DNA of 64,000 bases from Helicobacter pylori (GTDB lineage Bacteria; Campylobacterota; Campylobacteria; Campylobacterales; Helicobacteraceae), in the NCBI RefSeq assembly GCF_030062585.1, contig NZ_CP071935.1, positions 505,798 through 569,797 on the forward strand, given 5' to 3'. The notes under the pieces were generated by a model. The model was not told the origin of the DNA. It did not search any database and was given only the letters and a program-made list of their open reading frames with translations. How positions within the stretch are numbered: the first letter of the stretch is position 1; every line of letters starts with the position of its first letter. Below are positions 44,996 to 57,593 of this stretch, piece by piece. A program made the position numbers and the translations under genes.

Positions 44996-46800
44996 TTAAC
45001 TTTGGGTGCTTTGTGTAACTTCTTGTTCGCTTTCTTCATCGCCTTGTTGCATTTTCTTAAACAAGGCTCTTTTCTCTTCCATACTGATTTCACTCAGTGG
45101 CTTTTTTAAAATCTCATCAATTTCATTGTGATTTCCTTGCTCTATATTTTCATTAGCATTTTCTAAGGTAATGGGACTTTCATTGTCTTTCTCGCTTTCT
45201 TTTAAGTTTGAATTTTCAAGCTCTTGTGGTGTAATGGGATTATTCTCGTTAGGTTATAATGCACCACGCCTTTTAAGATTTTCAAATCATCATCGCTATA
45301 ATATTTTCTAATCATCGCATAATCTTGCGTGATGAATAAGGGAACGACATTATAAGAGCGACAAAGTGCAGGCATTTCTAACAAGAAAGGCAATTTACCA
45401 AATCTAACAAATTCATCAGCAATGATAAAAATACGCTCTTCAGGTTTAGAGCTTTCTTTGACCATAAGGTTTTTAGCAATACTCTCTAAAAAGGCTCTTA
45501 CTAAAGAAGAAAGTGTGCCTATATCAATTTGAGCGACTACAATATAAATACTGATATTGCCCGTTCTTAATTCTTCATAATCAAAGCTCATTTTAGAAGT
45601 AGCTTCACGCACTTTTGGGTCTTTATAGACATACATAAAACGCTTAAAAGAAGACATAATGCTCCCAAATTCATCATCAGGGGTGTTTGCCCAACTCCTA
45701 GCATCTGTCCTTATAATCTCATCTAACGCCCCTTTTGTTCCATAAGGGGGTTCAGGTTCTCTTGGGTCATAGTTTTTTTCATCATTCATATCTATGTATT
45801 TTTGGTCAGCCACTTGATTTAAAAAGAGTTTTAAAACATTAGCTTGGGGATTTTTCATGGGGGCGTTAGTTTGTGGGTCTAAGATAACTTCGCCTGTCTT
45901 TTTATCGTGTTGGTAAAGTTGCTTGTAATAAGGGCTTTTAGGGTGTATTAAGGGGGCATAATCATTAGCTGGTGCGATAGAGACATCATAAAAAGAGCTA
46001 TGCCCTTTGGTTACTACTTGTAAAAGAGCAAAAAAGACAAAAAGCTCTTTAGCTTTAGATACCCAATGGTCTTCTTCATCTACAAAAATACCATCGCCTA
46101 CTGCTTTAACATGCCTTAATTGCTCCGCAAAGGTCATCTTTTCAACAATCCTTTTATCAAAAGGATTGAAATAGCAAGTGTTATCATAAGGATTAAAAAT
46201 TAAAATTCTATTGTTTAAGAATTTTTGTCTATAACCTGCGGTCTTATCTCTTAGTTCGCCTTTAATATCAGTGATAATACAGCTATTAGGCAAAGTCAAT
46301 AAATTTGGCAAAGCCACACATGCAGTTTTTCCAGCACCAGGGGGTGCAACAATCATCGCTCCTAAGGGCTTGTCATAGCACACATTTCTAAGCTTTGGAA
46401 AACCAAATTTACCTAGAATAAAGCCATTATCAAATTGCACCCCTAATCTATGCACTACCTTACAAAAGCCCTCTTTGCTAAAAATTTTAAAGCATTCTAT
46501 ATCTTTAACATTAGCCCATCTCGCATAGCCATGCGAAGTTTCTGTGGTTTTTGGGAAATTGATATAAATCGTAGCCACAAAGGGCATTAAAGAGATTAGC
46601 ATAGTAAGATAGACTTCAAATTTTAAATCTAAGATACTCGCCCCCTTATAAAGCCCTATAAACACGCTTTGAGAAAAGAAATAAGCCTGTCTCAACGACT
46701 TTAAGGCATCAAAAGTGTAATAATTTGCCAAGATAAAAAATAAGGGGATAAGTAAAATGCTAAAAAGCACGCAAAAAGCCTTCACAAATTGCATTTTCAT
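44996..46800 (-). pseudogene. virD4: VirD4 coupling ATPase with an internal deletion
   Basis: VirD4 brings substrates to the secretion channel. The N-terminus has two or three membrane segments (residues 5-28, 66-82), Walker A is APPGAGKT at 152-159 and Walker B is IFIIADEFVRFG near 468. After LKGVVHYN the reading goes out of frame and stops at 45202. The proper C-terminus is present in another frame from about 45255 to the stop at 44996 (NPITPQELENSNLKESE through EISMEEKRALFKKMQQG). A stretch around 45250 that should hold the last part of the ATPase fold is missing. The start overlaps the mobC-like stop (ATGA). Confidence 0.85.
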
Positions 46801-47315
46801 GCGTTGTCCTTTTTTGGCTCAGTAGTAGATTGTTTTTCATTAAGAGCGTTGAGAATTTTTGAAATGGCGTTAAATTCTGTTTGGCTTTTTTGTTCTTTGT
46901 AAATTTGAAGTAATAATTCCAAAGAGACTTTTTTGCAATCTTCTATGTTTTTATTGAGCGTATCCATAGTCTTAAAAATCTCTTCTAAGAATGCTAAATT
47001 CTGCAAATAAAAGGGTTTGTTATACTTAATGGCAATGTTAGTGTTTTTAGTTAATTGATTGAGATTATTACTATTAGCAATGAGTTCTCTATAGACATGC
47101 TGATTGATACTAATGACTTTAAACAAGCTTTCATAAAATTCTTTTGTTTTTAGTGTTTCTTTGCTAGGGTCTAGGGCTAATAAAAGGCTTTCTATACACT
47201 CAGTAACGCTAATTTTTTTGACTTTTAAATAATTTTCTAAAATGTCCTTACATTCATTTGAAATAAAGCAATTGATACGCTTACCCAATTTTCGCTTGTT
47301 TTGATACTTTTTCAT
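46797..47315 (-). CDS. MobC-like mobilisation accessory protein
   Basis: The 172-residue protein has a basic N-terminus (KKYQNKRKLGKRIN) followed by a ribbon-helix-helix-like stretch (FISNECKDILENYLKVKKISVTECI, cited in part) and YRELIANSNNLNQLTKNTNIA near residue 77, which matches the MobC core (NLNQ). MobC proteins help the relaxase open the transfer origin. No relaxase remains here. Overlaps of four bases join it to virB11 upstream and virD4 downstream. Confidence 0.65.
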   Translation of the reverse strand: MKKYQNKRKLGKRINCFISNECKDILENYLKVKKISVTECIESLLLALDPSKETLKTKEFYESLFKVISINQHVYRELIANSNNLNQLTKNTNIAIKYNKPFYLQNLAFLEEIFKTMDTLNKNIEDCKKVSLELLLQIYKEQKSQTEFNAISKILNALNEKQSTTEPKKDNA

Positions 47316-48256
47316 AAGCTACTTTCTAATTCTTTGGTGGGTAAGATTTCTTGAATATATCTAGTGTTAGTGGCTTTATCAAGCACAATTTGAACGACAA
47401 TATCTACACTGCTTTCAAAGAATTTTCTTGCTACACTGACATCTAAACCACTTTTATTCATCTGTAGATTTAAAGCAATCGCCTCTATAACCCCATGCAC
47501 ACTATCTGCATGTAAAGTAGAAACCATTCCTTTATGTCCTGTGTTGCCAAACCTTAAAAAAAGCAAGGCATTTCGTGTGTCAATCTCGCCTACCATAAGT
47601 CTATCAGGACTCATTCTCATTGCCATATTCAAGGCGTTTTCATAGGTAAATTTAGAGCTTTCTGTCTTATCCACTAACAAGGATTTATGATTTTCAAACG
47701 CTCTTAAATCTAATTCTTCGCTATCTTCAACGCTTACTATTCGTGTGTGTTTGGGGATAAACTCAATTAGAGCGTTTAAAAAACTCGTTTTTCCACTGCC
47801 TGTGCCTCCACTAATGAGTAAGTTTTTGCCCTCAATCATTAAGTTTTGTAAATACTCATAATCGTATTGACAGATACTAGAAAGCTTGAAAGCTTTTAAA
47901 TCAAACTTTTTATCACTTGGCACTCTAATATTCAAACTCAATTCATTATCCGCACTAATAGCAAAGTGGTTCATGCTCACTCTGTATCTAGAAGTAGGAA
48001 TGGAAGTATTAAGGGTGGGGTAATTAGCATTAAAAAACAAATCTCTAAAACTTGCTAATTGTTCCCCAAACCCCAGAATAAAGGCTTTGTCTAAATTTTC
48101 ATCAAAGACTTTTTCTCTTACTCCATTAAGCTTATAGAGCCAAATTTCTTTTTCTTTATTCATAATTAGCTCTGTAATACCGCTATCTAAATAAGGCAAT
48201 AGCCTTAAAATAGCGTTTCTTAAAGCCCTATAATCTTTGAGTTTGTCTAAGTCCAT
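47312..48256 (-). CDS. virB11: VirB11 secretion ATPase
   Basis: A 314-residue hexameric traffic ATPase of the inner membrane face that powers pilus assembly and substrate export. The N-terminal domain (1-130) precedes Walker A SGGTGSGKT at 149-157; the Asp box VSVEDSEELDL is near 173, Walker B MRMSPDRLMVGEID near 215, and the His box STLHADS near 250. All catalytic parts are present. It follows the coiled-coil gene after 4 bases and overlaps the MobC-like gene. Confidence 0.93.
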   Translation of the reverse strand: MDLDKLKDYRALRNAILRLLPYLDSGITELIMNKEKEIWLYKLNGVREKVFDENLDKAFILGFGEQLASFRDLFFNANYPTLNTSIPTSRYRVSMNHFAISADNELSLNIRVPSDKKFDLKAFKLSSICQYDYEYLQNLMIEGKNLLISGGTGSGKTSFLNALIEFIPKHTRIVSVEDSEELDLRAFENHKSLLVDKTESSKFTYENALNMAMRMSPDRLMVGEIDTRNALLFLRFGNTGHKGMVSTLHADSVHGVIEAIALNLQMNKSGLDVSVARKFFESSVDIVVQIVLDKATNTRYIQEILPTKELESSL

Positions 48257-48260
48257 AGAA

Positions 48261-48539
48261 TTACTTTCTTTTTAATTCTTCAATATTGTTACTAAGCGTT
48301 TCAATCTTGTTATCCAAGTGCTTAATGCGTCTTTCAAACTCTCTTTGCAAGCTTTCACGCTTATTGATAGCCTTATCTAACTCATCAGTGCGTCGAACAA
48401 TTAAATTGGCGTTGTTTTTTAATTCCTTAGCTTTTTGAATATTATTCAATGGCATTTTTTCTACTTCCTTTGGCTCTTGGTTTTGATTATTGGAGTTAAT
48501 TTCTAACTCGTTTTCTTGCGTGATTTCATCTGACATCAT
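48261..48539 (-). CDS. short coiled-coil protein of the tfs cluster, 92 aa
   Basis: A polar 92-residue protein with a disordered Asn/Gln/Glu-rich start and a coiled coil from about residue 35 (heptads through KAKELKNNANLIVRRTDELDK and HLDNKIETLSNNIEELK). No signal peptide. It sits between the outer membrane protein gene and virB11 and is translated in the same run. Role unknown. Confidence 0.65.
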   Translation of the reverse strand: MMSDEITQENELEINSNNQNQEPKEVEKMPLNNIQKAKELKNNANLIVRRTDELDKAINKRESLQREFERRIKHLDNKIETLSNNIEELKRK

Positions 48540-48552
48540 TGGCTCCTTAAAA

Positions 48553-49515
48553 TTAAAATAAATAAGCGTAGTTGAACGCTATGTAGCTAGAATTAGTCGC
48601 TTTGGTAAGAAAATTAGAAAACAAGACCTCGCCCTTAAAATTCCCGTTTTGAACGACAATTTTGCTAGGCACAACTGACTGATAGTTAATTGCTCCTCCA
48701 AAGCGATAATTCACTTCAAATTGATGATGGTTTAAGTAATAATGTAGTCCAATAGTGGGATAAAAACCATGATTAAAAATATCTTTAGGTTTATTAGTGA
48801 TAAACTCACTATGGCTGGTTTTTATGGGGTCTATTTTTGCAAAATAATATTGCATATGCCAGCCAAAGCCCACACTTAATCCTAGTGTATGGCGGTTCTT
48901 TTTAATGACATTTAAAAAATCAAACAAATACTTCACATCTATGCCAAAATTTAAAGGCGTGTAATTAGCGCTAACTTTAGATTGGTAAATTTTTATGTCT
49001 GTGCTTACATCACTAGGTGTGCCTCCATACAAATGGCTTGAGATTTTAATCCCATGCCTTTTACTAGCTCCAAAATAATGCTGATAACCTATTAATAGTC
49101 CCATATTAAAATTAGCGTTTTTAAAAGTCTTGCTATAAGTGAGTAAATCATCTGTAGCATTAGAAATAAGGCTTAAACTTTGTTTTAAACTTGTGCCTGT
49201 AATAGCAATTTCTGAGCCTAAGAAAAAGCCATTTTTAGTTTGCATAGCTACTAGGTGTTTTTGAGACTTTTTTTGCTCTTTAACTTCTCTTTTAACTTGA
49301 CTTTGTAACAACTCAGCACTTTGTAAAGGAGCTGATTGTTGCTTTTTAAGGGTATTTTGTGGAGCAATTTTTTGCTCCATTTTGTGTTCTAATTTCTGTT
49401 CTTGAGAAATGTCTTCTTGTTTATTTTCATCAGGCATAATGGCTAAAAAGCCCTCATTAGCTTGCAAATAACCAAGAGTAGTTAAAAACAAGGCTTTCTT
49501 TAAATTAGTGTTCAT
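48553..49515 (-). CDS. Hop-like outer membrane protein encoded in the tfs cluster
   Basis: A 320-residue protein with a signal peptide (MNTNLKKALFLTTLGYLQANEG). A Gln/Lys-rich disordered linker spans about 25-88. From about 92 the sequence (TKNGFFLGSEIAITGTSL) turns into alternating beta strands and ends NYAYLF with the terminal Phe, as in the H. pylori Hop/Hor outer membrane proteins. GLSVGFGWHMQYYFAK and GGAINYQ are like Hop barrel strands. It would be a small, eight-strand barrel in the outer membrane, close to the VirB9/VirB10 pore genes. A Hop-like barrel inside this locus is unusual. Confidence 0.7.
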   Translation of the reverse strand: MNTNLKKALFLTTLGYLQANEGFLAIMPDENKQEDISQEQKLEHKMEQKIAPQNTLKKQQSAPLQSAELLQSQVKREVKEQKKSQKHLVAMQTKNGFFLGSEIAITGTSLKQSLSLISNATDDLLTYSKTFKNANFNMGLLIGYQHYFGASKRHGIKISSHLYGGTPSDVSTDIKIYQSKVSANYTPLNFGIDVKYLFDFLNVIKKNRHTLGLSVGFGWHMQYYFAKIDPIKTSHSEFITNKPKDIFNHGFYPTIGLHYYLNHHQFEVNYRFGGAINYQSVVPSKIVVQNGNFKGEVLFSNFLTKATNSSYIAFNYAYLF

Positions 49516-49527
49516 TTTTTTCCTTTC

Positions 49528-51768
49528 TTAATTGTTTGGGACAACCCAATTGTTGTGCGAAGCGCATGAGTAATTAGCATTAGGCGTCTGCGCCCATGAG
49601 CAATATTTACCCTTAGTGCTAGGTTTCCAAGCATTTCCAGAGCTAAAGTTATAACTCATACAAAGATTGCCATTCCCATTAGGGCGATAATAAGTCGCTT
49701 GCCAATTGGTAAATTCTTGTGTGTTAATGAGTTGTTTAACACCATTATTGAGATTAAGATTTTGGCTTAATACAGTGAGTTCAAAATTTTTGCGATACTC
49801 ATCGCTTAAATTAGGGGTATTCACATAGATAGTGGATGGAAAGCGTTTGAGTGTTTTTTGAGCTTGTGAGACATAGTAATACTTATAGGTGTCATACACA
49901 GCATCACTATCGCCCTCATTTCTAGGGCGGATATATCCAATCGTAGTGCCTTGATTGATAGTCTGATATCGTGTAACCCACTTAGCTAGGGTGCGTAAAT
50001 TACCTTGAGAATAGCCTGTATAGCTGTGTGTTTTAGTCCAAGACCCCCATCCATCATCACAATAAGAAGTGGTTATCCATTGACTGCTATTTAAAGACAT
50101 TTCTTGAATTTCAAAAGTGGTATATTGTGGCAAATCATAATTTGAGCCACTAATAGTGTCTAAATCGCCTACATCTTCGCCTTTAACGCTACTTTCTACA
50201 TTGATTTTGGTATAAGGTTGGATAATTTTAGGCACTTTACCCATATCAGAAGTGTAATCACAGCCTGTTACATTGTAGTATTGGTTAGACACCGTATCAA
50301 AGATACGAATTTGAGTGGGGCGATAAGCCTCTAATTTAGCGTTATCAAACTGCCATTTACCGCACGCATAAGTTTGGTAGCTAAATTTTAAAGGACTAAC
50401 CACATCATGACTGATAAAGACTTTTTCTTTAGTAATGGGGTTAATATAGTATTGATCAATCACTCTTTGAACAGTGCGAGTGCTTGGGTCATTATCGTAT
50501 TTAACTAATTGTTCTTGCACATTTGCAAAATCAGTGCAAGGTTTAGCTACATGGATTAAGTTATCAAGCCCACGAAATAAAATTTCTGTTTGAAAAAAAC
50601 TTGCCATGCCACTTCCATAGCCTTTATTAGTGGTGGTATCTAGCTTGCATTTATTGGCATCTTCATACATAGGAAATTCAAATTGCTCCCCATATAAATC
50701 CACACAACCCCCAATGTTAATACTTTTGTTTTCTCTGTTGATAAAATAAAATTGTGTTTGCTTAATGGCTTTCATATTTTCAAAGTCGTAGTTGTATTGA
50801 CAGACATTGTCATTTCTAAAAGCTTGCATTTTAAAGCAAGAGCCATTTCTATCCACAATGTCTATATTCATCGTATTGCCATTTCTAATAGGAGCGGTGC
50901 AAAATTCATTGGTATAATGGCTATCTGTACTAGCAGTGCCTCCATTAGCACTATTACTCCCATTAGCTCCGCTTGTGCCATCAATTCCATTAGTGCCATT
51001 AATTCCATTAGCACCACTACCATTTTGAAGTCCGGGAGAATAAGGGAAAGGAATAAAGCCCCCTCCCATGCCTCCTATACCTCCGTCTCCACTCATAAAG
51101 GGGGTATAGCCACTATTAGAACTCCCACTAGAGCCATTTCCACTCCCAGCAATTGGGGGGAATGGGTTAGAGCCTACGCCTTGATAACCACTTGTGCCAT
51201 TAGCTCCATTTGCTCCACTACTTCCATTTTCCCCTTTAGCCCCATTATCACCAGAAGTGCCATTTACTCCATTTGCACTTGTACCATTAGAGCCAGCGTT
51301 ATTGCTTGTGTCTCCATAACCACTTGCATATCCCATGCCACTTGCCCCACTCCCACTAAAACCTTTGCCATTTTTACTAGAGACATAAGCACTTTTACTC
51401 ACCCCTATGGCATTAGACATCTCACTATCGTTTTCACCGCCTAAGACAATCCTTGTGCCTTTTTTAAGAACCAGTTTGCTTTTAATTTCTTTAATGGCGT
51501 TTGGGGGGCTTTGTAAGGTCTTATAATCATTGCCCTTTTTAATATGCGTTACACTAATAGAAAGATTAGCTCTGTTTTTAGAAACCTTGTAATTACCCAT
51601 AGCAATGGTATTTTCTTGCACCTTATTACCCACAACAACTAAAGCCTTAAATTCGCTATTTTTTCTTAAATTCCAATCTTGCATAGTCTGAATGACAAGA
51701 GCATGGCTATTTGAAAGTGCTACACATAAACTCATTAAAATTTTAAACACATTAGATTTCTTCTTCAT
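49528..51768 (-). CDS. secreted tfs-cluster protein with collagen-like repeats
   Basis: A 746-residue protein with a signal peptide (KILMSLCVALSNSHA). Residues 25-125 form a small folded domain with a basic stretch. Residues about 155-200 and 250-275 are Gly-X-Y triplets, mostly with Asn or Ser in the Y place (units GVN, GTS, GDN, GAK, GEN, GSS, GAN, then GIN, GTN, GID, GTS, GAN), split by a Gly/Pro/Phe-rich segment. Residues 280-746 are beta-rich with many Cys, Tyr and Trp (CKLDTTT, YACGKWQF, CDDGWGSW), like a surface or pilus-tip domain. The start overlaps the virB10 end by 17 bases. The family has no function I know; surface exposure is inferred. Confidence 0.7.
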   Translation of the reverse strand: MKKKSNVFKILMSLCVALSNSHALVIQTMQDWNLRKNSEFKALVVVGNKVQENTIAMGNYKVSKNRANLSISVTHIKKGNDYKTLQSPPNAIKEIKSKLVLKKGTRIVLGGENDSEMSNAIGVSKSAYVSSKNGKGFSGSGASGMGYASGYGDTSNNAGSNGTSANGVNGTSGDNGAKGENGSSGANGANGTSGYQGVGSNPFPPIAGSGNGSSGSSNSGYTPFMSGDGGIGGMGGGFIPFPYSPGLQNGSGANGINGTNGIDGTSGANGSNSANGGTASTDSHYTNEFCTAPIRNGNTMNIDIVDRNGSCFKMQAFRNDNVCQYNYDFENMKAIKQTQFYFINRENKSINIGGCVDLYGEQFEFPMYEDANKCKLDTTTNKGYGSGMASFFQTEILFRGLDNLIHVAKPCTDFANVQEQLVKYDNDPSTRTVQRVIDQYYINPITKEKVFISHDVVSPLKFSYQTYACGKWQFDNAKLEAYRPTQIRIFDTVSNQYYNVTGCDYTSDMGKVPKIIQPYTKINVESSVKGEDVGDLDTISGSNYDLPQYTTFEIQEMSLNSSQWITTSYCDDGWGSWTKTHSYTGYSQGNLRTLAKWVTRYQTINQGTTIGYIRPRNEGDSDAVYDTYKYYYVSQAQKTLKRFPSTIYVNTPNLSDEYRKNFELTVLSQNLNLNNGVKQLINTQEFTNWQATYYRPNGNGNLCMSYNFSSGNAWKPSTKGKYCSWAQTPNANYSCASHNNWVVPNN
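50926..51300 (-). repeat. coding DNA for two collagen-like Gly-X-Asn blocks
   Basis: Tandem 9- and 18-base units of the type GGT-GCT-AAT / GGC-ACT-AAT recur at 50957-51027 and 51178-51300 (minus strand), encoding the triplet blocks. Near-repeat DNA of this kind can change in number by recombination. Confidence 0.7.
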
Positions 51769-52960
51769 TGTTAATTTCCTCTTTTGTTTTGATTGGGGGT
51801 TTTTTCTCTTTAAAGAACTCCGCTAAAACCTCCCCATCTTTTGGTTTAGGGATAAAGATGTCTAAATTAGGGCTAATAAACACTCTGCTCCCCTCTCTAA
51901 TGATGATAATGGGGTTTTGCGCTCCATATTGCCTTAGCATTTGATTGATAACTTGATTGATGCCCATGCCTGTATTTCTAGTGAGTTGCATAAGCAAGTA
52001 ATCCCCAAAAAAAGGGTTGCCATCACCATTTCTATTTTGCCTATTAGCTAAGGCTGAAGTAATTCCTATTAAAAGACCATTAGAGAGCGTGTTAGTGAGT
52101 AAGGGGATACCATAGCGTTGAAAGTTTCGGCTAATGTATTTGCCTACTAAGCCATTATAACCCTTCACATCAGCCCCCCTTGCGTTAGTGAGCATGATGT
52201 TTATGCCTTGAGGCGTGATAATTCTAGTCCAAGCAATGTTAAGGCGGTATTGTCCAATTTGATTGTTATTATTGTAATAGCCTATAACCTTAGAGCCTTT
52301 AGGGATTAGCACCGCTCTACCCATAGAAGCAAATATATCGCTCTCTACTTGGGCGGTTACTTTTCCAGCAATTTGAGAGCTAATAGGCGTGATTAAAAAG
52401 GCTGGTATCATTCTATCAGCGGTTATAGTTCTTAAAAGCTTATGCTCATTAGTGCCGATGTCTTTATATTTTAAATTAGTAAAACTATCCACGCCGTATT
52501 CCGTCTCAGGCTTAGCGGCTGGTTTAGTTGGTTCTAAAGGTTTAAGGCGTGTGTTTAAAAATTCTAATTGCTCTTTAGTATGCTTTGGTTTAGGCTTTAT
52601 TTTAGAGGGGCTTTGTAAAACTTGTTGTAAATGCGTGATAGTATTATTTTGCTGATTAAGATTGTTGTTAAGATGACTATAATCTTTAATGTTAGGATTA
52701 GCTGAAACACTAGGATTGGGGCTAGTTTGTGTTGTAGGCTCTTGGGTAGTTACTTCTGGTATTTCTTTGGCTTTTTCTTTTGGCTCTTCTTTGACTTCTT
52801 CAAAGAAATAATCACTTAAAGGGAATTTACTCTCACTTACCTGGAAGATTTCTTCTTTATTGTTATTGTTTGAGCCTTTATTAGCAAGCAATCCTAATGC
52901 CATTAAAACAACAAAGCCCCCAACACCTAAGCCTATCTTTTTAAGCAAGGATTGTTTCAT
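51752..52960 (-). CDS. virB10: VirB10 secretion channel protein
   Basis: The 402-residue protein spans both membranes and forms the core channel with VirB7 and VirB9. After a short cytoplasmic start a transmembrane helix lies at about 9-26 (IGLGVGGFVVLMALGLLA). A Pro/Lys/Glu-rich periplasmic linker runs to about 150. The C-terminal TrbI domain (about 170-375) shows GKVTAQVESDIF, VLIPKGSKVIGYY and IAWTRIITPQG. I place the start at ATG 52960, which overlaps the virB9 stop (ATGA) and follows AGAGGGC; an in-frame start at 52990 is less likely. Confidence 0.9.
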   Translation of the reverse strand: MKQSLLKKIGLGVGGFVVLMALGLLANKGSNNNNKEEIFQVSESKFPLSDYFFEEVKEEPKEKAKEIPEVTTQEPTTQTSPNPSVSANPNIKDYSHLNNNLNQQNNTITHLQQVLQSPSKIKPKPKHTKEQLEFLNTRLKPLEPTKPAAKPETEYGVDSFTNLKYKDIGTNEHKLLRTITADRMIPAFLITPISSQIAGKVTAQVESDIFASMGRAVLIPKGSKVIGYYNNNNQIGQYRLNIAWTRIITPQGINIMLTNARGADVKGYNGLVGKYISRNFQRYGIPLLTNTLSNGLLIGITSALANRQNRNGDGNPFFGDYLLMQLTRNTGMGINQVINQMLRQYGAQNPIIIIREGSRVFISPNLDIFIPKPKDGEVLAEFFKEKKPPIKTKEEINNEEEI

Positions 52961-54423
52961 CTTGCCCTCTTTGCTATCTTTTCTATACAAAGATAGGCTT
53001 TACCAAGCTTTAAATTCCATTGATTTGAGACATCTTCAGCGATTAAGTAATCGCCTACTACTCTGCTATTAACAGGATTATCATAGCCATCTATAACTTT
53101 ATAAACTACAGGGAATTTACTTCTAGCATTAGAGCGGTTAAATTTAAAATAGGTAAATTGCTCATCATTAAAGATTTGAGTGGGTAAATCATCTTTGTAT
53201 TTGGATTTGACAACCTTTTTACACATCCATAAGCAATACCATTTGCGTTTTTTCTTGTCTATAATGACATAGCCATATTCCATTTTTTTCTTGTTGATAT
53301 AGATGTGATTGACATTGTCCCCAATTTTAATGAATTTGCCATCATCTTTGATTTTGGCGGAGTAATCCACATATTTCATTTCATCTTGGCTGTGTCTATG
53401 CTCTTTGAAAGTTTTAGTTTGATTGCTAATCACTTTAAAATTTTCTGAAGCCTTTCTAGAATTAGCTAAAGCGTTACTAGGTGGATAGCTAGGGGATTTG
53501 AAACGATTTAAAGAAATGGGAGCATTTGCTAACGCTATTTTAGTGGTAGTAGGGTTTTTAGATTTTGTAAGTGGGTTTTGCTCTTTAATATTTGGTGATT
53601 TTTTAGTTATCTTTTTAGGGACATTATGGCTTGTTTTAATGTCTTTGTTTTGGGTGCTATGAGTGGGTTTATTTTCTTTGTTGATTTCTTTCTTAGTGGT
53701 AGTGAAATTTTTAAAATACTCTTTAGAAGAAATATACACCATTAAGGCTGGGTTTTTAGAGCTAGTATATGTGGTTGAAAACATATAAAAGCTATAGACC
53801 TTACCGCTTTTTCCAATGATAGTTAAATTGCTATCTACGCCAATTTGCAAGGGCTTAACGAGTAAGATATTAGAAATTAAATGCTCTTTATCTTCGCCAA
53901 GCATTTTAGTAGAAAAGCCTATATCATCGCCTAGAACCACTTGTGCGATTGGCTCATCAAAAATAAAAGTGGTTGTCATAGCATATCTTAGGCGAATATT
54001 GAAAGTATCGCCTATGGTGTAGTGGATAAAGTGGGTGTTATCTTTGATAGAGCGATTTTTAGCAAAAAAATTGGCTTGGATGGCATTGAAGTTTGTCATA
54101 GGTTTTAAAGAATTATCTTCATCGCTATTATCATCGCTTAAAACTTCATCGCTCTTTTGAGTTTGTTTGGAGTTTTCTTTATTTGCATAAGGGCTATTAG
54201 CACTAAACGCACTAATAGGCGCATCATTAGGTTTTGGGGTGAGTTTATCATTAACATAATTAGTGGCGTTAGTGATAGTTTGCTTGGTTTTATTAAGAGC
54301 GTTATTAGTGAATTGCTTGGCGTTATTTAGCATTGTTTGAGTTTGTGTGTTATTTGGTTGGTTATTTTGTATAGGTGTAGTGGGTTGTGAATAAGGGTTT
54401 TGATTTGGCATAGGTGTTTGCAT
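52957..54423 (-). CDS. virB9: VirB9-type secretion protein, N-terminus atypical
   Basis: A 488-residue protein. Residues 120-240 form the N-terminal VirB9 domain (HFIHYTIGDTFNIRLRYAMTTTFIFDEPI, cited in part), and residues 345-485 the C-terminal domain (VDYSAKIKDDGKFIKIGDN, then WNLKLGKAYLCIEK). The first 110 residues are Gln/Asn/Pro/Thr-rich without a signal peptide, which a periplasmic protein should have, and no ribosome site precedes the ATG. The frame stays open upstream to a stop inside the hairpin at 54482. The 5' end may be lost or rearranged together with virB8. Confidence 0.75.
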   Translation of the reverse strand: MQTPMPNQNPYSQPTTPIQNNQPNNTQTQTMLNNAKQFTNNALNKTKQTITNATNYVNDKLTPKPNDAPISAFSANSPYANKENSKQTQKSDEVLSDDNSDEDNSLKPMTNFNAIQANFFAKNRSIKDNTHFIHYTIGDTFNIRLRYAMTTTFIFDEPIAQVVLGDDIGFSTKMLGEDKEHLISNILLVKPLQIGVDSNLTIIGKSGKVYSFYMFSTTYTSSKNPALMVYISSKEYFKNFTTTKKEINKENKPTHSTQNKDIKTSHNVPKKITKKSPNIKEQNPLTKSKNPTTTKIALANAPISLNRFKSPSYPPSNALANSRKASENFKVISNQTKTFKEHRHSQDEMKYVDYSAKIKDDGKFIKIGDNVNHIYINKKKMEYGYVIIDKKKRKWYCLWMCKKVVKSKYKDDLPTQIFNDEQFTYFKFNRSNARSKFPVVYKVIDGYDNPVNSRVVGDYLIAEDVSNQWNLKLGKAYLCIEKIAKRAR

Positions 54424-54519: not shown

Positions 54520-54886
54520 AACTCTCTAATTGCGTGTTTATGCTAGATGTGATACTTTCTTGCAACTTATGCGTAACAATGCGTTTTAACTTAGGCAAAA
54601 CCCTTTCTTGAATTTTATTCTCCCATTTTTCAAAAGAGATTTTTTCTAACTCTTGGTTTTTAGCAATGCTTGTTTGAATGCTTTTAATTAGCTCTTCTTG
54701 ATTTTCTTTGGTATCTTGTTCTAAAAACTCTTCTTGTTGGTTTTTTTCTTGTTCTTCTAAAAACATGCTTAAACTCATAAAAAAGCATTTAGCGTATTCT
54801 TTAATATTTTCTTTAGTAAAAGAGCCTATTTCAAAGGAATTTTCTAATTCTTTTAAATGCTCTCTAAGTTCTTGCAAATTAGACAT
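54500..54886 (-). CDS. charged helical protein of the tfs cluster, 128 aa (possibly truncated)
   Basis: A very charged, mostly helical protein (LQELREHLKELENS; FLEEQEKNQQEEFLEQD) with no membrane segment, so it is not VirB8 although it lies in the VirB8 position. AAGGGGG before ATG 54886 is a strong ribosome site. Its last five residues (ELPNR) are encoded by the arm of the inverted repeat, so the original end may have been replaced. It overlaps the VirB7-like gene by 8 bases. Function unknown. Confidence 0.6.
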   Translation of the reverse strand: MSNLQELREHLKELENSFEIGSFTKENIKEYAKCFFMSLSMFLEEQEKNQQEEFLEQDTKENQEELIKSIQTSIAKNQELEKISFEKWENKIQERVLPKLKRIVTHKLQESITSSINTQLESCELPNR

Positions 54887-55019
54887 GTGTCCCCCTTAAA
54901 AAAGAGTTGTTTAAGTCCTTTAACGCACAAGGGGATTTTTTCATTTCTATGAATTTCTCTGAGCATGCACATAGAAACATAGCCACTATCACAAAAACTA
55001 AACGCATGATGTTTTTCAT
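54879..55019 (-). CDS. virB7: VirB7-like lipoprotein, 46 aa
   Basis: The peptide MKNIMRLVFVIVAMFLCACSE continues to a short polar tail of about 25 residues ending GTHV. Leu-Cys-Ala-Cys is a lipobox, with Cys19 as the lipidated residue, so the mature part is about 28 residues. This fits VirB7, the small lipoprotein that anchors VirB9 in the outer membrane. The gene starts on ATGA, overlapping the virB4 stop, and its end overlaps the next start by 8 bases. Place and form make the call; there is no long conserved sequence. Confidence 0.75.
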   Translation of the reverse strand: MKNIMRLVFVIVAMFLCACSEKFIEMKKSPCALKDLNNSFLRGTHV

Positions 55020-57593
55020 TTAAGCACCTTTTCTAAGTGTTTTTTGTCATCAAAATTTTCGTGTTTGTTACTCACAAAGACTTCTCGCCAAGTTTTAGGG
55101 TAATGCTTAATGAGATTATCAATGTGTTCTACCATGCTAGAATTAGAGCTAAAGATTTGTAGGTAATTACCCAAAGAACTTAGGCTCACATCTATAATGT
55201 TAGATGAGCCATCATTCATGTTTTTGAGTAAGACTTTGTATTCATTAACGGCGGTGTTTTCTAAAAAATGTTTTTCTGTATCGCTTAGTCTAATGCCAAA
55301 TTTATCGTTTAAATCTTTGGTATCAATATTTCTTTGGGGATACAAAATCAATTGCCCCATATTTTTTATAAAGCTTTGAGCGTTTCTCACTTCGCTTAGT
55401 TGGTTAATGTCTTGTAAGGCTAGAACAATCACCCCATTAGCCTTTCTAGCTTGAGTAATGATTTCATTGATTTTTTTATTCATCATTTCATTTTGAGCGT
55501 AAGACTTAAACTCATCAATAAAGCATAAAAACCCACGATTGATTTTTAAGGCTCTGTCAATCATCTTATGAAAGACATAGTAGGCTAAAAGCCCAGCGTC
55601 ATCATCATTATGTAAAATGCTATCGGTATTTATGGTGCTAATACGAGTTTTAAAATCTAGACTATCCATTCGGCTAGAAAATAAGGAAGATTTTAAATAG
55701 TCTTCAAAACTACTATCTAAAATGTCTGTATTGGTTTTAACAATGGCATTGACAAACTCTTTTAAATCAAAAGGAAGAGGTAATTCTTGGTTGCTAAATT
55801 TGGCTTGTTTGACTTCATCGTTATAATTTCTATACATCGTATCAATAGCATTTAAAATGGCTGTTCTATCTTCTACTTTATCCTTATGGTCATCATAACT
55901 ATCCACTTTTGCCATTTGGGCATAAAAATGCAATAAAAAGGCTCTATTAGTTGCACTATCTTCTAATGAAAAAGGGTTAATATGAAAGTTTTCGCCTTGA
56001 TTATAAATCCCATCAAAATACTTGGTAAAGGAATACAAACCATTTAGTCTATCAAGAGCTAAAATATCAATGTTAGAATATTTTAAGGCACTCATCATCA
56101 AATAGCTAATGAGTGTGGTTTTACCAGCACCTGTTGCTCCTATAATCATGGTATGTCCCACTACTCGTGCGACATTGTGGGCTAACACGCCCTTATGTTT
56201 GACTTCTTGATTATGAAAATTAAACAAATAAGGGCTATGGTCTAGGTTCTTAAACACAGATAAGGGCATATCCCCCCAAGAATTTGCTCTAAAACCTGTA
56301 TTATTTTTCTCAAACAAAATCAAAGATGCTATGACTTGGGAAGTTTGATGTCTCATTCTAGGGTTGATATTGGCGTTATTTGGGAAGAATGAAAAATAAG
56401 ATGGTTTTAGCCCTATAGTTTCTGTAACACTGCCTAGTCCAGCATTATTAAGCAAGGATAAAATCTCTTTTAAAGACTTGTCTAATTTAGCTTTACTTTT
56501 AGCCCTTATAACTAAGTTTAAAGCACACTCTTGCATGCTCAAACGATTGGCTTGCACTAATTCTATATAATTATCAATATCAGCTTTTACTATTTTAGAA
56601 AGCGTGAGCTTTTTCTTAGTTTTTAAAAAATTCAGGCTTTCAAATTGCCCTAAAGAGCGGATATGAAAGATTAAATCTAGTTCAATTTGGGTGTGTAAAA
56701 GAGTAGATATAGGGAGCGAAGAAATTTCTTCGCTCTCATAAGCCTTAATCCCCACACACGCACAAAAGGTGTTTTGATTTTGAAATTCAATGACAAAGTA
56801 ATCTTTCTTAAAATGCACATTAGATGCAATATAGCTATCGCTTAATCGCTTTAATTTAGGATTAAAGGCGATGTATTTGCCATTGATGTATTCTGCGTAG
56901 AAATTTAATACTTCTTTAGAATTTAAGAGAGTGGGTTTAAACTCTCTTAATGCGTTTTTCACTCTTTCTATGGTTTGAATGAGTAAGGCTCTTTTACTTG
57001 TGGTGCTAAAGGTTATCTTTTTTTTTGAACTTGTTTTTCTTGTCTTTTTTAGAGCTTGTGTTTGAATGAGTTTCATTGGAGCTATTTTCATTCTCTTGTT
57101 TATCTTCTTTAGAGCTTTCTTCTAACTCTTCATTAATTGAAGTAGTCATTTCCAATTTCTTTTTTTCAAAGAAAGACTTGACATTAGAAGTGATAGTTTC
57201 AAACACTAAAAAATACTCTGTTTTATAGATTTCCTTGCTTTCAAATTGTGTGATAATAGCTTTGGCATAAATATTGTCAATATTTGGACTTTGATTGATA
57301 AATTCCTTACGCCTTTTAGCCACAATTCTTAATTGAATGTCTTTACTAATGGTGTTGAGAACATTTTGTCTAGTATCAAAATAGCCCTCTAAGTCTTTTT
57401 GCATTAAATTAGAATAGCTTAGTCCTTGTAAGGATATAATGCCTACTAGATTTTCTTGTTTGGTAATAATGAAAGTATCATCATACAAGCCTAAAATATT
57501 GCACTCCTGTGCCATAGAATAGGTTTTTGGCACAAACCCTGCTAAAAGGTCTATGGCTTTTTCCTTGCAATATTTAAGGGCGCTTTCTAACAT
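55016..57593 (-). pseudogene. virB4: VirB4 ATPase gene split at an A9 tract
   Basis: VirB4 is the large ATPase of the type IV system. The N-terminal domain (from ATG 57593) reads GLYDDTFIITKQENLVGII, typical for VirB4/CagE; this frame ends after 195 residues at 57006. The rest, with Walker A GATGAGKTT, Walker B LCFIDEFKSYAQ and QDINQLSEVRNAQ, is in another frame. The frames meet in a run of nine A (57018-57026, T on the plus strand). Eight or eleven A would give one open frame of about 858 codons. Transcript slippage on A9 might restore some full protein. The end overlaps virB7 (ATGA). A second start at 57091 gives a 691-residue C-terminal part. Confidence 0.85.

Follow-up and report, generated by a model that had tools for sequence, protein, structure and literature searches.

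The competence protein ComH (HP1527) of Helicobacter pylori is described as a periplasmic protein whose C-terminal domain (CTD) binds double-stranded DNA (dsDNA) and whose N-terminal domain (NTD) binds ComEC, and the same source regards it as specific to H. pylori and unrelated to any known motif (PMC6877725). ComB has been called a chimeric system, working with heterogeneous ComH and ComEC partners (PMC12857230). The integrative and conjugative elements (ICEs) ICEHptfs3 and ICEHptfs4 carry pz15 and its tfs4 counterpart, both already published as hypothetical genes (PMC4234485). Here we analyzed a gene that we take to be of the pz15 / hpb8_543 type of ICEHptfs3, from its position beside virB10 (pz14) in Table 4 of PMC4234485; it lies in a 64,000-nucleotide stretch of H. 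pylori assembly GCF_030062585.1 (contig NZ_CP071935.1, positions 505,798 to 569,797), and this whole stretch is called the window below. Judged by sequence and profile comparison its product is a relative of ComH, homologous over both the NTD and the CTD, and it is encoded inside the operon of a type IV secretion system (T4SS). ComH is then no orphan, its family being a recurrent gene of conjugation operons. In the open-access literature searched we found nothing linking ComH to ICE or tfs genes or to conjugation operons, and neither the recurrence in the virB10-virB11 gap nor a descent of ComH from this family; the accessible parts of PMC5785829 and PMC2731543 mention neither ComH nor collagen nor pz15.

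The gene is an intact open reading frame (ORF) of 746 amino acids with an ATG start and no internal stops. A search of the whole genome with this protein returned two places only, the gene itself and a segment of a 479-amino-acid ORF between dnaA and exoA, which is ComH, its close copies being named 'competence protein'. BLASTP aligned the window protein with ComH at 1e-14 across 230 C-terminal columns. A hidden Markov model (HMM) of 11 relatives with ComH excluded, for some rows of which the gene neighbourhood was read, matched the ComH of this genome at E=2.6e-54, through one domain at residues 1-222 and another at 234-476, with independent E-values (iE) of 8.4e-11 for the NTD and 9.5e-45 for the CTD. 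The NTD profiles of the family and of ComH aligned over 88 columns (hhalign, prob 97.7, E=1.6e-12); they omit P0015-P0019 and P0022 (fragments, a fusion and an odd row) as well as the partial ComH entries P0057, P0059, P0061 and P0062 (P and L numbers are our handles for proteins and loci). A protein search starting from ComH returned 21 ComH sequences and no T4SS-linked proteins, and a first scan of the genome contigs with the window protein (P0001) as sole query gave no match. A profile or whole-genome search is needed to connect ComH with these genes. Weak matches to MraZ, SNase-type and kelch proteins were at chance level (TM-scores of about 0.05), and charge was uninformative as an indicator of DNA binding.

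Both proteins have a signal peptide (putative in the window protein), a homologous NTD, a low-complexity linker and a homologous CTD, the alignments giving the order NTD - linker - middle Cys region - CTD for the window protein and NTD - linker - CTD for ComH. ComH differs in lacking the middle Cys region and the blocks of Gly-X-Y triplets and in its locus at dnaA-exoA, outside any T4SS operon, and an Arg-rich Cys loop is present in ComH but not in the window protein. The window gene is not a ComH orthologue proper, as it is located in a T4SS operon, in another clade and not at dnaA-comH-exoA. The N-terminus (MKKKSNVFKILMSLCVALSNSHA, followed by L) was judged by eye as a putative Sec signal peptide, and A23 and L24 at the putative cleavage junction are near-invariant in 24 relatives. 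AlphaFold2 left residues 134-285 of the window protein (predicted local distance difference test, pLDDT, below 50) and residues 105-238 of ComH unstructured, and the remainder of the window protein is predicted to be mainly beta; the protein as a whole contains 13 Cys and 10 Trp. This agrees with an earlier note made from the DNA alone (the original prediction), which had claimed a signal peptide and a beta-rich C-terminal domain with many Cys and aromatic residues.

As that prediction had also stated, the gene is placed between virB10 and virB11 in a T4SS operon: Pfam matches flank it, with virB10 upstream and, in this order downstream, an ORF of 320 amino acids resembling outer-membrane proteins (OMP-like), a 92-amino-acid ORF and virB11 (Table 1). 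Its close copies carry the NCBI name 'collagen-like protein [Helicobacter pylori]', and the three best named clusters, P0002-P0004, hold 1069, 451 and 225 member sequences (1745 in total), for all of which the present relationship offers a testable role. Pfam and NCBIfam gave no match above cut-off in any family member scanned. The view that such a protein is not a standard part of VirB systems proved wrong for this branch. Of the 23 loci with both markers recognised, 20 have the family gene between virB10 and virB11 with all three genes on one strand; these belong to Helicobacteraceae, Arcobacteraceae, Sulfurospirillum and, by weaker evidence, to a plasmid of the Alphaproteobacteria. Not every one of the 20 counts as independent, L032 sharing 98-99% DNA identity with the window, and for this count the family members in L099, L101 and L102 were assigned manually. 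Three loci deviate (L025, L027, L029), namely those of an H. suis plasmid, of H. baculiformis and of a genome resembling H. cetorum. Another 49 family loci (ComH loci, short stretches, tfs4-type, Thalassospira, H. cinaedi) were set aside, virB10 or virB11 being unrecognised on the stretch. The member in L099 was matched at 7e-12. The family profile at 1e-3 did not reach the Roseibium (L101) and Thalassospira (L102) members, which are supported by tblastn with an Aliarcobacter protein (5e-5), by two-Cys modules and by position.

A scan of the genus found a match in 33 of 34 genomes, ComH counted, and a scan of the order in 23 of 398 genomes and 6 of 87 genera. On MOBP-typed plasmids of Aliarcobacter butzleri the order is virB2-3-4-6-8-9-10-[gene]-orf-virB11-mobC-virD4, and Malaciobacter and Sulfurospirillum genomes also carry the family gene. 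By weaker evidence it occurs on plasmids of the Alphaproteobacteria Roseibium and Thalassospira, the Roseibium gene again lying between virB10 and virB11. The family therewith adds a candidate unrecognised T4SS component in several genera of Campylobacterota and, less surely, on these alphaproteobacterial plasmids. The counterpart in ICEHptfs4, hpp12_442/443 (737 amino acids), is given as the pz15 orthologue with 32/50% identity/similarity in Table 4 of PMC4234485 and, according to the same table, adjoins virB6 instead of filling the virB10-virB11 gap, which is likewise the case in L026 and L030. Our label 'tfs4-type' means kinship plus a virB6-like neighbour; these copies share Gly-X-Y runs with the window protein.

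To place ComH within the family, a tree of the NTD and CTD was calculated (31 rows, 391 columns, rooted on the Arcobacteraceae and Sulfurospirillum copies). It unites ComH with eight chromosomal relatives (99/98), and this clade branches within the T4SS genes, where it groups with the tfs4-type copies and those of the H. suis plasmid and of H. baculiformis (98/98). In the approximately unbiased (AU) test a single clade of ComH and the tfs3 genes was rejected (p=2.4e-5), whereas a topology that groups every Helicobacter T4SS row to the exclusion of ComH narrowly escaped rejection (p=0.0545). With this alternative in mind, ComH likely descends from T4SS-linked conjugation genes, which gives it a likely origin. 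In all eight neighbourhoods the chromosomal ComH relatives adjoin genes which we take to be ppc- and ilvC-like, and those of other helicobacters have Ser/Arg-rich linkers. In 11 of the loci L039-L055 (L039-L041, L043-L047, L049, L050, L053) a single ORF matches both the CTD and, at an iE of 4e-3 or better, the NTD; the other six loci are truncated by the end of a contig, split, only weakly matched in the NTD, or of a different kind. PMC13395361 gives ComH with an N-terminal domain for H. pylori, H. cetorum and H. acinonychis alone, a statement at odds with these loci.

ComB10-type genes were found in every one of the 34 genomes scanned in the genus (L113-L146; 33 above cut-off, element copies counted), while a control set gave 1 match in 14, below cut-off. 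In the ComB10 trees ComB10 joins the tfs3 VirB10 (100/99) and the tfs4-type VirB10 joins that of the H. suis plasmid (93/92). The trees of ComB10 and ComH disagree and thus do not indicate one common donor element; the idea that a single tfs3-like element supplied both ComB and ComH is unsupported. The ComH NTD is predicted to fold like the CTD of VirB10, since the 13 best VIA-align rows for its model all come from T4SS core complexes. This likeness to the VirB10/TrbI CTD (ComB10, TraF, TrwE, CagY) is one of predicted fold, whereas the family NTD has no significant sequence similarity to it: PF03743 (TrbI) matched neither P0001 nor eight relatives nor ComH, and hhalign was non-significant. A duplication of virB10 as source of the NTD was tested by sequence with three negative results, and the idea is retained only at the level of the fold predicted for the ComH NTD.

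Regarding its function, we lean, with little more than even confidence, towards a ComH relative inside a conjugative T4SS operon that serves as the machine's own envelope DNA-handling arm. The predicted signal peptide would export the protein, and its NTD might dock at the outer-membrane core as a VirB10-like piece or at the inner-membrane channel, the latter option being modelled on the binding of ComEC by the ComH NTD. The linker, filled with Gly-X-Y triplets in H. pylori, would provide reach, and the Cys modules together with the CTD would hold DNA while it crosses the periplasm or enters the recipient. ComH would represent a copy of such a protein that was domesticated and, losing the middle Cys region, became shorter, and if the DNA-handling role is true, the DNA-uptake receptor of H. 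pylori would descend from a DNA-transfer machine. A wider version of this idea, which we put forward tentatively and consider rather doubtful, has ComH as a domesticated conjugation part, an unnamed DNA-gripping arm beside virB10 in machines from Alphaproteobacteria to Campylobacterota, and ICE copies passing the incoming DNA on to the recipient ComEC; such an arm would dock through a VirB10-like domain and, beyond a flexible linker, grip DNA with two-Cys modules arranged in series. Transfer of ICEHptfs4 under DNase is reported to require recipient ComEC strictly and to be aided by ComB (PMC6586827). The same paper describes, however, that a donor without hpp12_438-469 still transfers ICEHptfs4.

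Deletion of the whole tfs3 or tfs4 left plasmid transfer unchanged (PMC3447787), and these two deletion studies, in which tfs genes had scarcely any influence on transfer or none, would suit an ICE cargo or a decaying gene that has no role in transfer at all. The window element would fit this as well, as its ICEHptfs3 T4SS is a remnant in which virB8 is reduced to residues 1-122 of 380, virB4 is split over two frames and virD4 is internally deleted. Yet the 746-amino-acid ORF is intact within this remnant, the clusters of its close copies are large and its operon position recurs in other genera, and we regard mere cargo as very improbable. The breakage also corrects the original prediction, which proposed export with this secretion machine or attachment to it: membership in the operon is supported, but in this strain the T4SS is broken.

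The DNA-handling arm has its main rival in a surface stalk for mating contact, and here the two-Cys modules have to be considered. This module of 35-40 residues occurs twice in the window protein, and 5 copies were counted in Aliarcobacter, 6 in Sulfurospirillum (one weak), 7 in Roseibium and 9 in two Arcobacteraceae proteins (some weak), using an HMM iterated on family proteins only, with no outside control, and matches up to an iE of 1. P0088, a metagenome protein of 1486 amino acids, has 21 tandem modules, 16 of them at an iE of 0.01 or better, and P0087 shows a near-identical tandem duplication. ComH retains a weak trace (3e-2), aligned with the second module, and three other ComH-type proteins have none. 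In the rival explanation the NTD would anchor at the outer-membrane core, linker and modules would form a rod and the CTD would touch the recipient, ComH having been repurposed to DNA later. A variation from 2 modules in the window protein to 16 in P0088 (21 with weak matches) on one architecture would suit it, and so would the tandem duplication in P0087, the varying linker length and the OMP-like gene adjoining in tfs3-like elements; a stalk of variable length looks more like a matter of these modules than of the triplets. Such a role would be comparable to that of TraN in F-type systems; no search matched TraN and the Pfam scans list no TraN-type match, while a TraN-like role is still compatible with the fold searches. 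Mainly, however, ComH, the one relative that has been characterised, is a dsDNA-binding protein of the periplasm (PMC6877725), and we consider the stalk possible but on balance unlikely.

The original prediction had taken a collagen-like trimeric fibre or adhesin, with the stalk length set by the number of triplets, as key to the protein. The Gly-X-Y blocks with Asn or Ser at Y are indeed present: the window protein has 22 in-register triplets (11 + 4 + 7) with mostly Asn (10) or Ser (4) at Y, and in 20000 shuffles of the linker (149 residues) the longest run was equalled in 2 and the total in 1. The triplet number varies as predicted, from 4 to 23 per protein (runs of at least 4) in 18 close relatives (P0001-P0017, P0019), with none in the fragment P0018. 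Linker length varies among the close relatives too, and repeats in the linker DNA, 61-71% identical, could help this change. Runs of 4-7 triplets occur in all five tfs4-type copies examined, the tfs3 copy of H. cetorum has runs of 10 and 7, and the name given by NCBI would also fit a fibre. The Pfam Collagen family (PF01391), however, scores 11.8 bits against a cut-off of 27.2, NCBIfam models are likewise below cut-off, and Pro is absent from the triplets. Scl-type bacterial collagen-like proteins similarly carry Gly-X-Y blocks after a signal peptide, but differ from the window protein in exactly these points and in that its blocks are patchy across the family. Runs of at least 4 are found in 6 of 23 more distant relatives (P0020-P0042, longest run 5) and absent in the other 17; all 28 proteins of P0064-P0091 and all 21 ComH sequences lack them as well. 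Homologues lacking the blocks, named in advance as evidence against the fibre, are therefore largely but not wholly what was found, since tfs4-type, H. cetorum and one Arcobacteraceae copy do have runs.

Because runs are present in some copies and in none of P0064-P0091 or ComH, the collagen-like sequence is thus a recurrent yet dispensable filler of a linker that drifts in length and composition. The conserved parts are the flanking domains, those of ComH, and collagen is secondary; the fibre, improbable in our view and made only slightly more likely by the wider count of runs, was set aside as the main explanation because of the patchy blocks. The Arcobacteraceae copy in L099 (7649-10252) has Gly-X-Asn-type runs of 6 and 5 in its linker while its nearest family members are without any, and a second origin of the collagen-like filling is possible there.

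Table 1: Position of the gene, its parts and neighbouring T4SS genes in the window.
Feature	Position	Strand	Basis
ComH-family T4SS protein (pz15 / hpb8_543 type), 746 aa, intact ORF	49528..51768	-	HMM link to ComH; place next to virB10 (pz14)
Putative signal peptide, residues 1-23	51700..51768	-	by eye, site between SHA and L; A23/L24 near-invariant
NTD, residues 24-132, homologous to ComH NTD	51373..51699	-	hhalign; VirB10-CTD-like fold predicted for the ComH NTD
Low-complexity linker, residues 134-285, holds Gly-X-Y blocks	50914..51369	-	pLDDT <50; ComH counterpart 105-238
Gly-X-Y block, 11 triplets, residues 167-199	51172..51270	-	
Gly-rich in-register run, 4 triplets, residues 227-238	51055..51090	-	
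Gly-X-Y block, 7 triplets, residues 252-272	50953..51015	-	
Cys-containing middle region, residues 286-462, absent from ComH	50383..50913	-	
Two-Cys module 1, residues 323-357	50698..50802	-	module HMM iE 2e-16
Two-Cys module 2, residues 469-503, opens ComH-like CTD	50260..50364	-	module HMM iE 4e-3; aligned to ComH CGKW segment
CTD, residues 463-746, homologous to ComH dsDNA-binding CTD	49531..50382	-	BLASTP and HMM domain match to ComH
virB10 (ComB10 type), 17-nt overlap with 746-aa gene	51752..52990	-	PF03743 2.4e-42, NF038092 5.9e-117
OMP-like 320-aa protein, neighbour in tfs3-like elements	48553..49515	-	no family match near its cut-off
92-aa ORF	48261..48539	-	
virB11	47312..48256	-	PF00437 3.4e-29; TIGR02788 8.4e-52, below its cut-off
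Broken T4SS genes virD4, virB8, virB4	45002-46800, 54521-54886, 55016-57593		

The ends of the element were not called, as the candidate end motif AAGAATG has 21 matches, a number equalled in 16 of 100 shuffles. The OMP-like 320-amino-acid protein ends with YAYLF, and in several Helicobacter species its gene is the neighbour of the ComH-like one within tfs3-like elements; the protein is a possible outer-membrane partner of the ComH-like protein.
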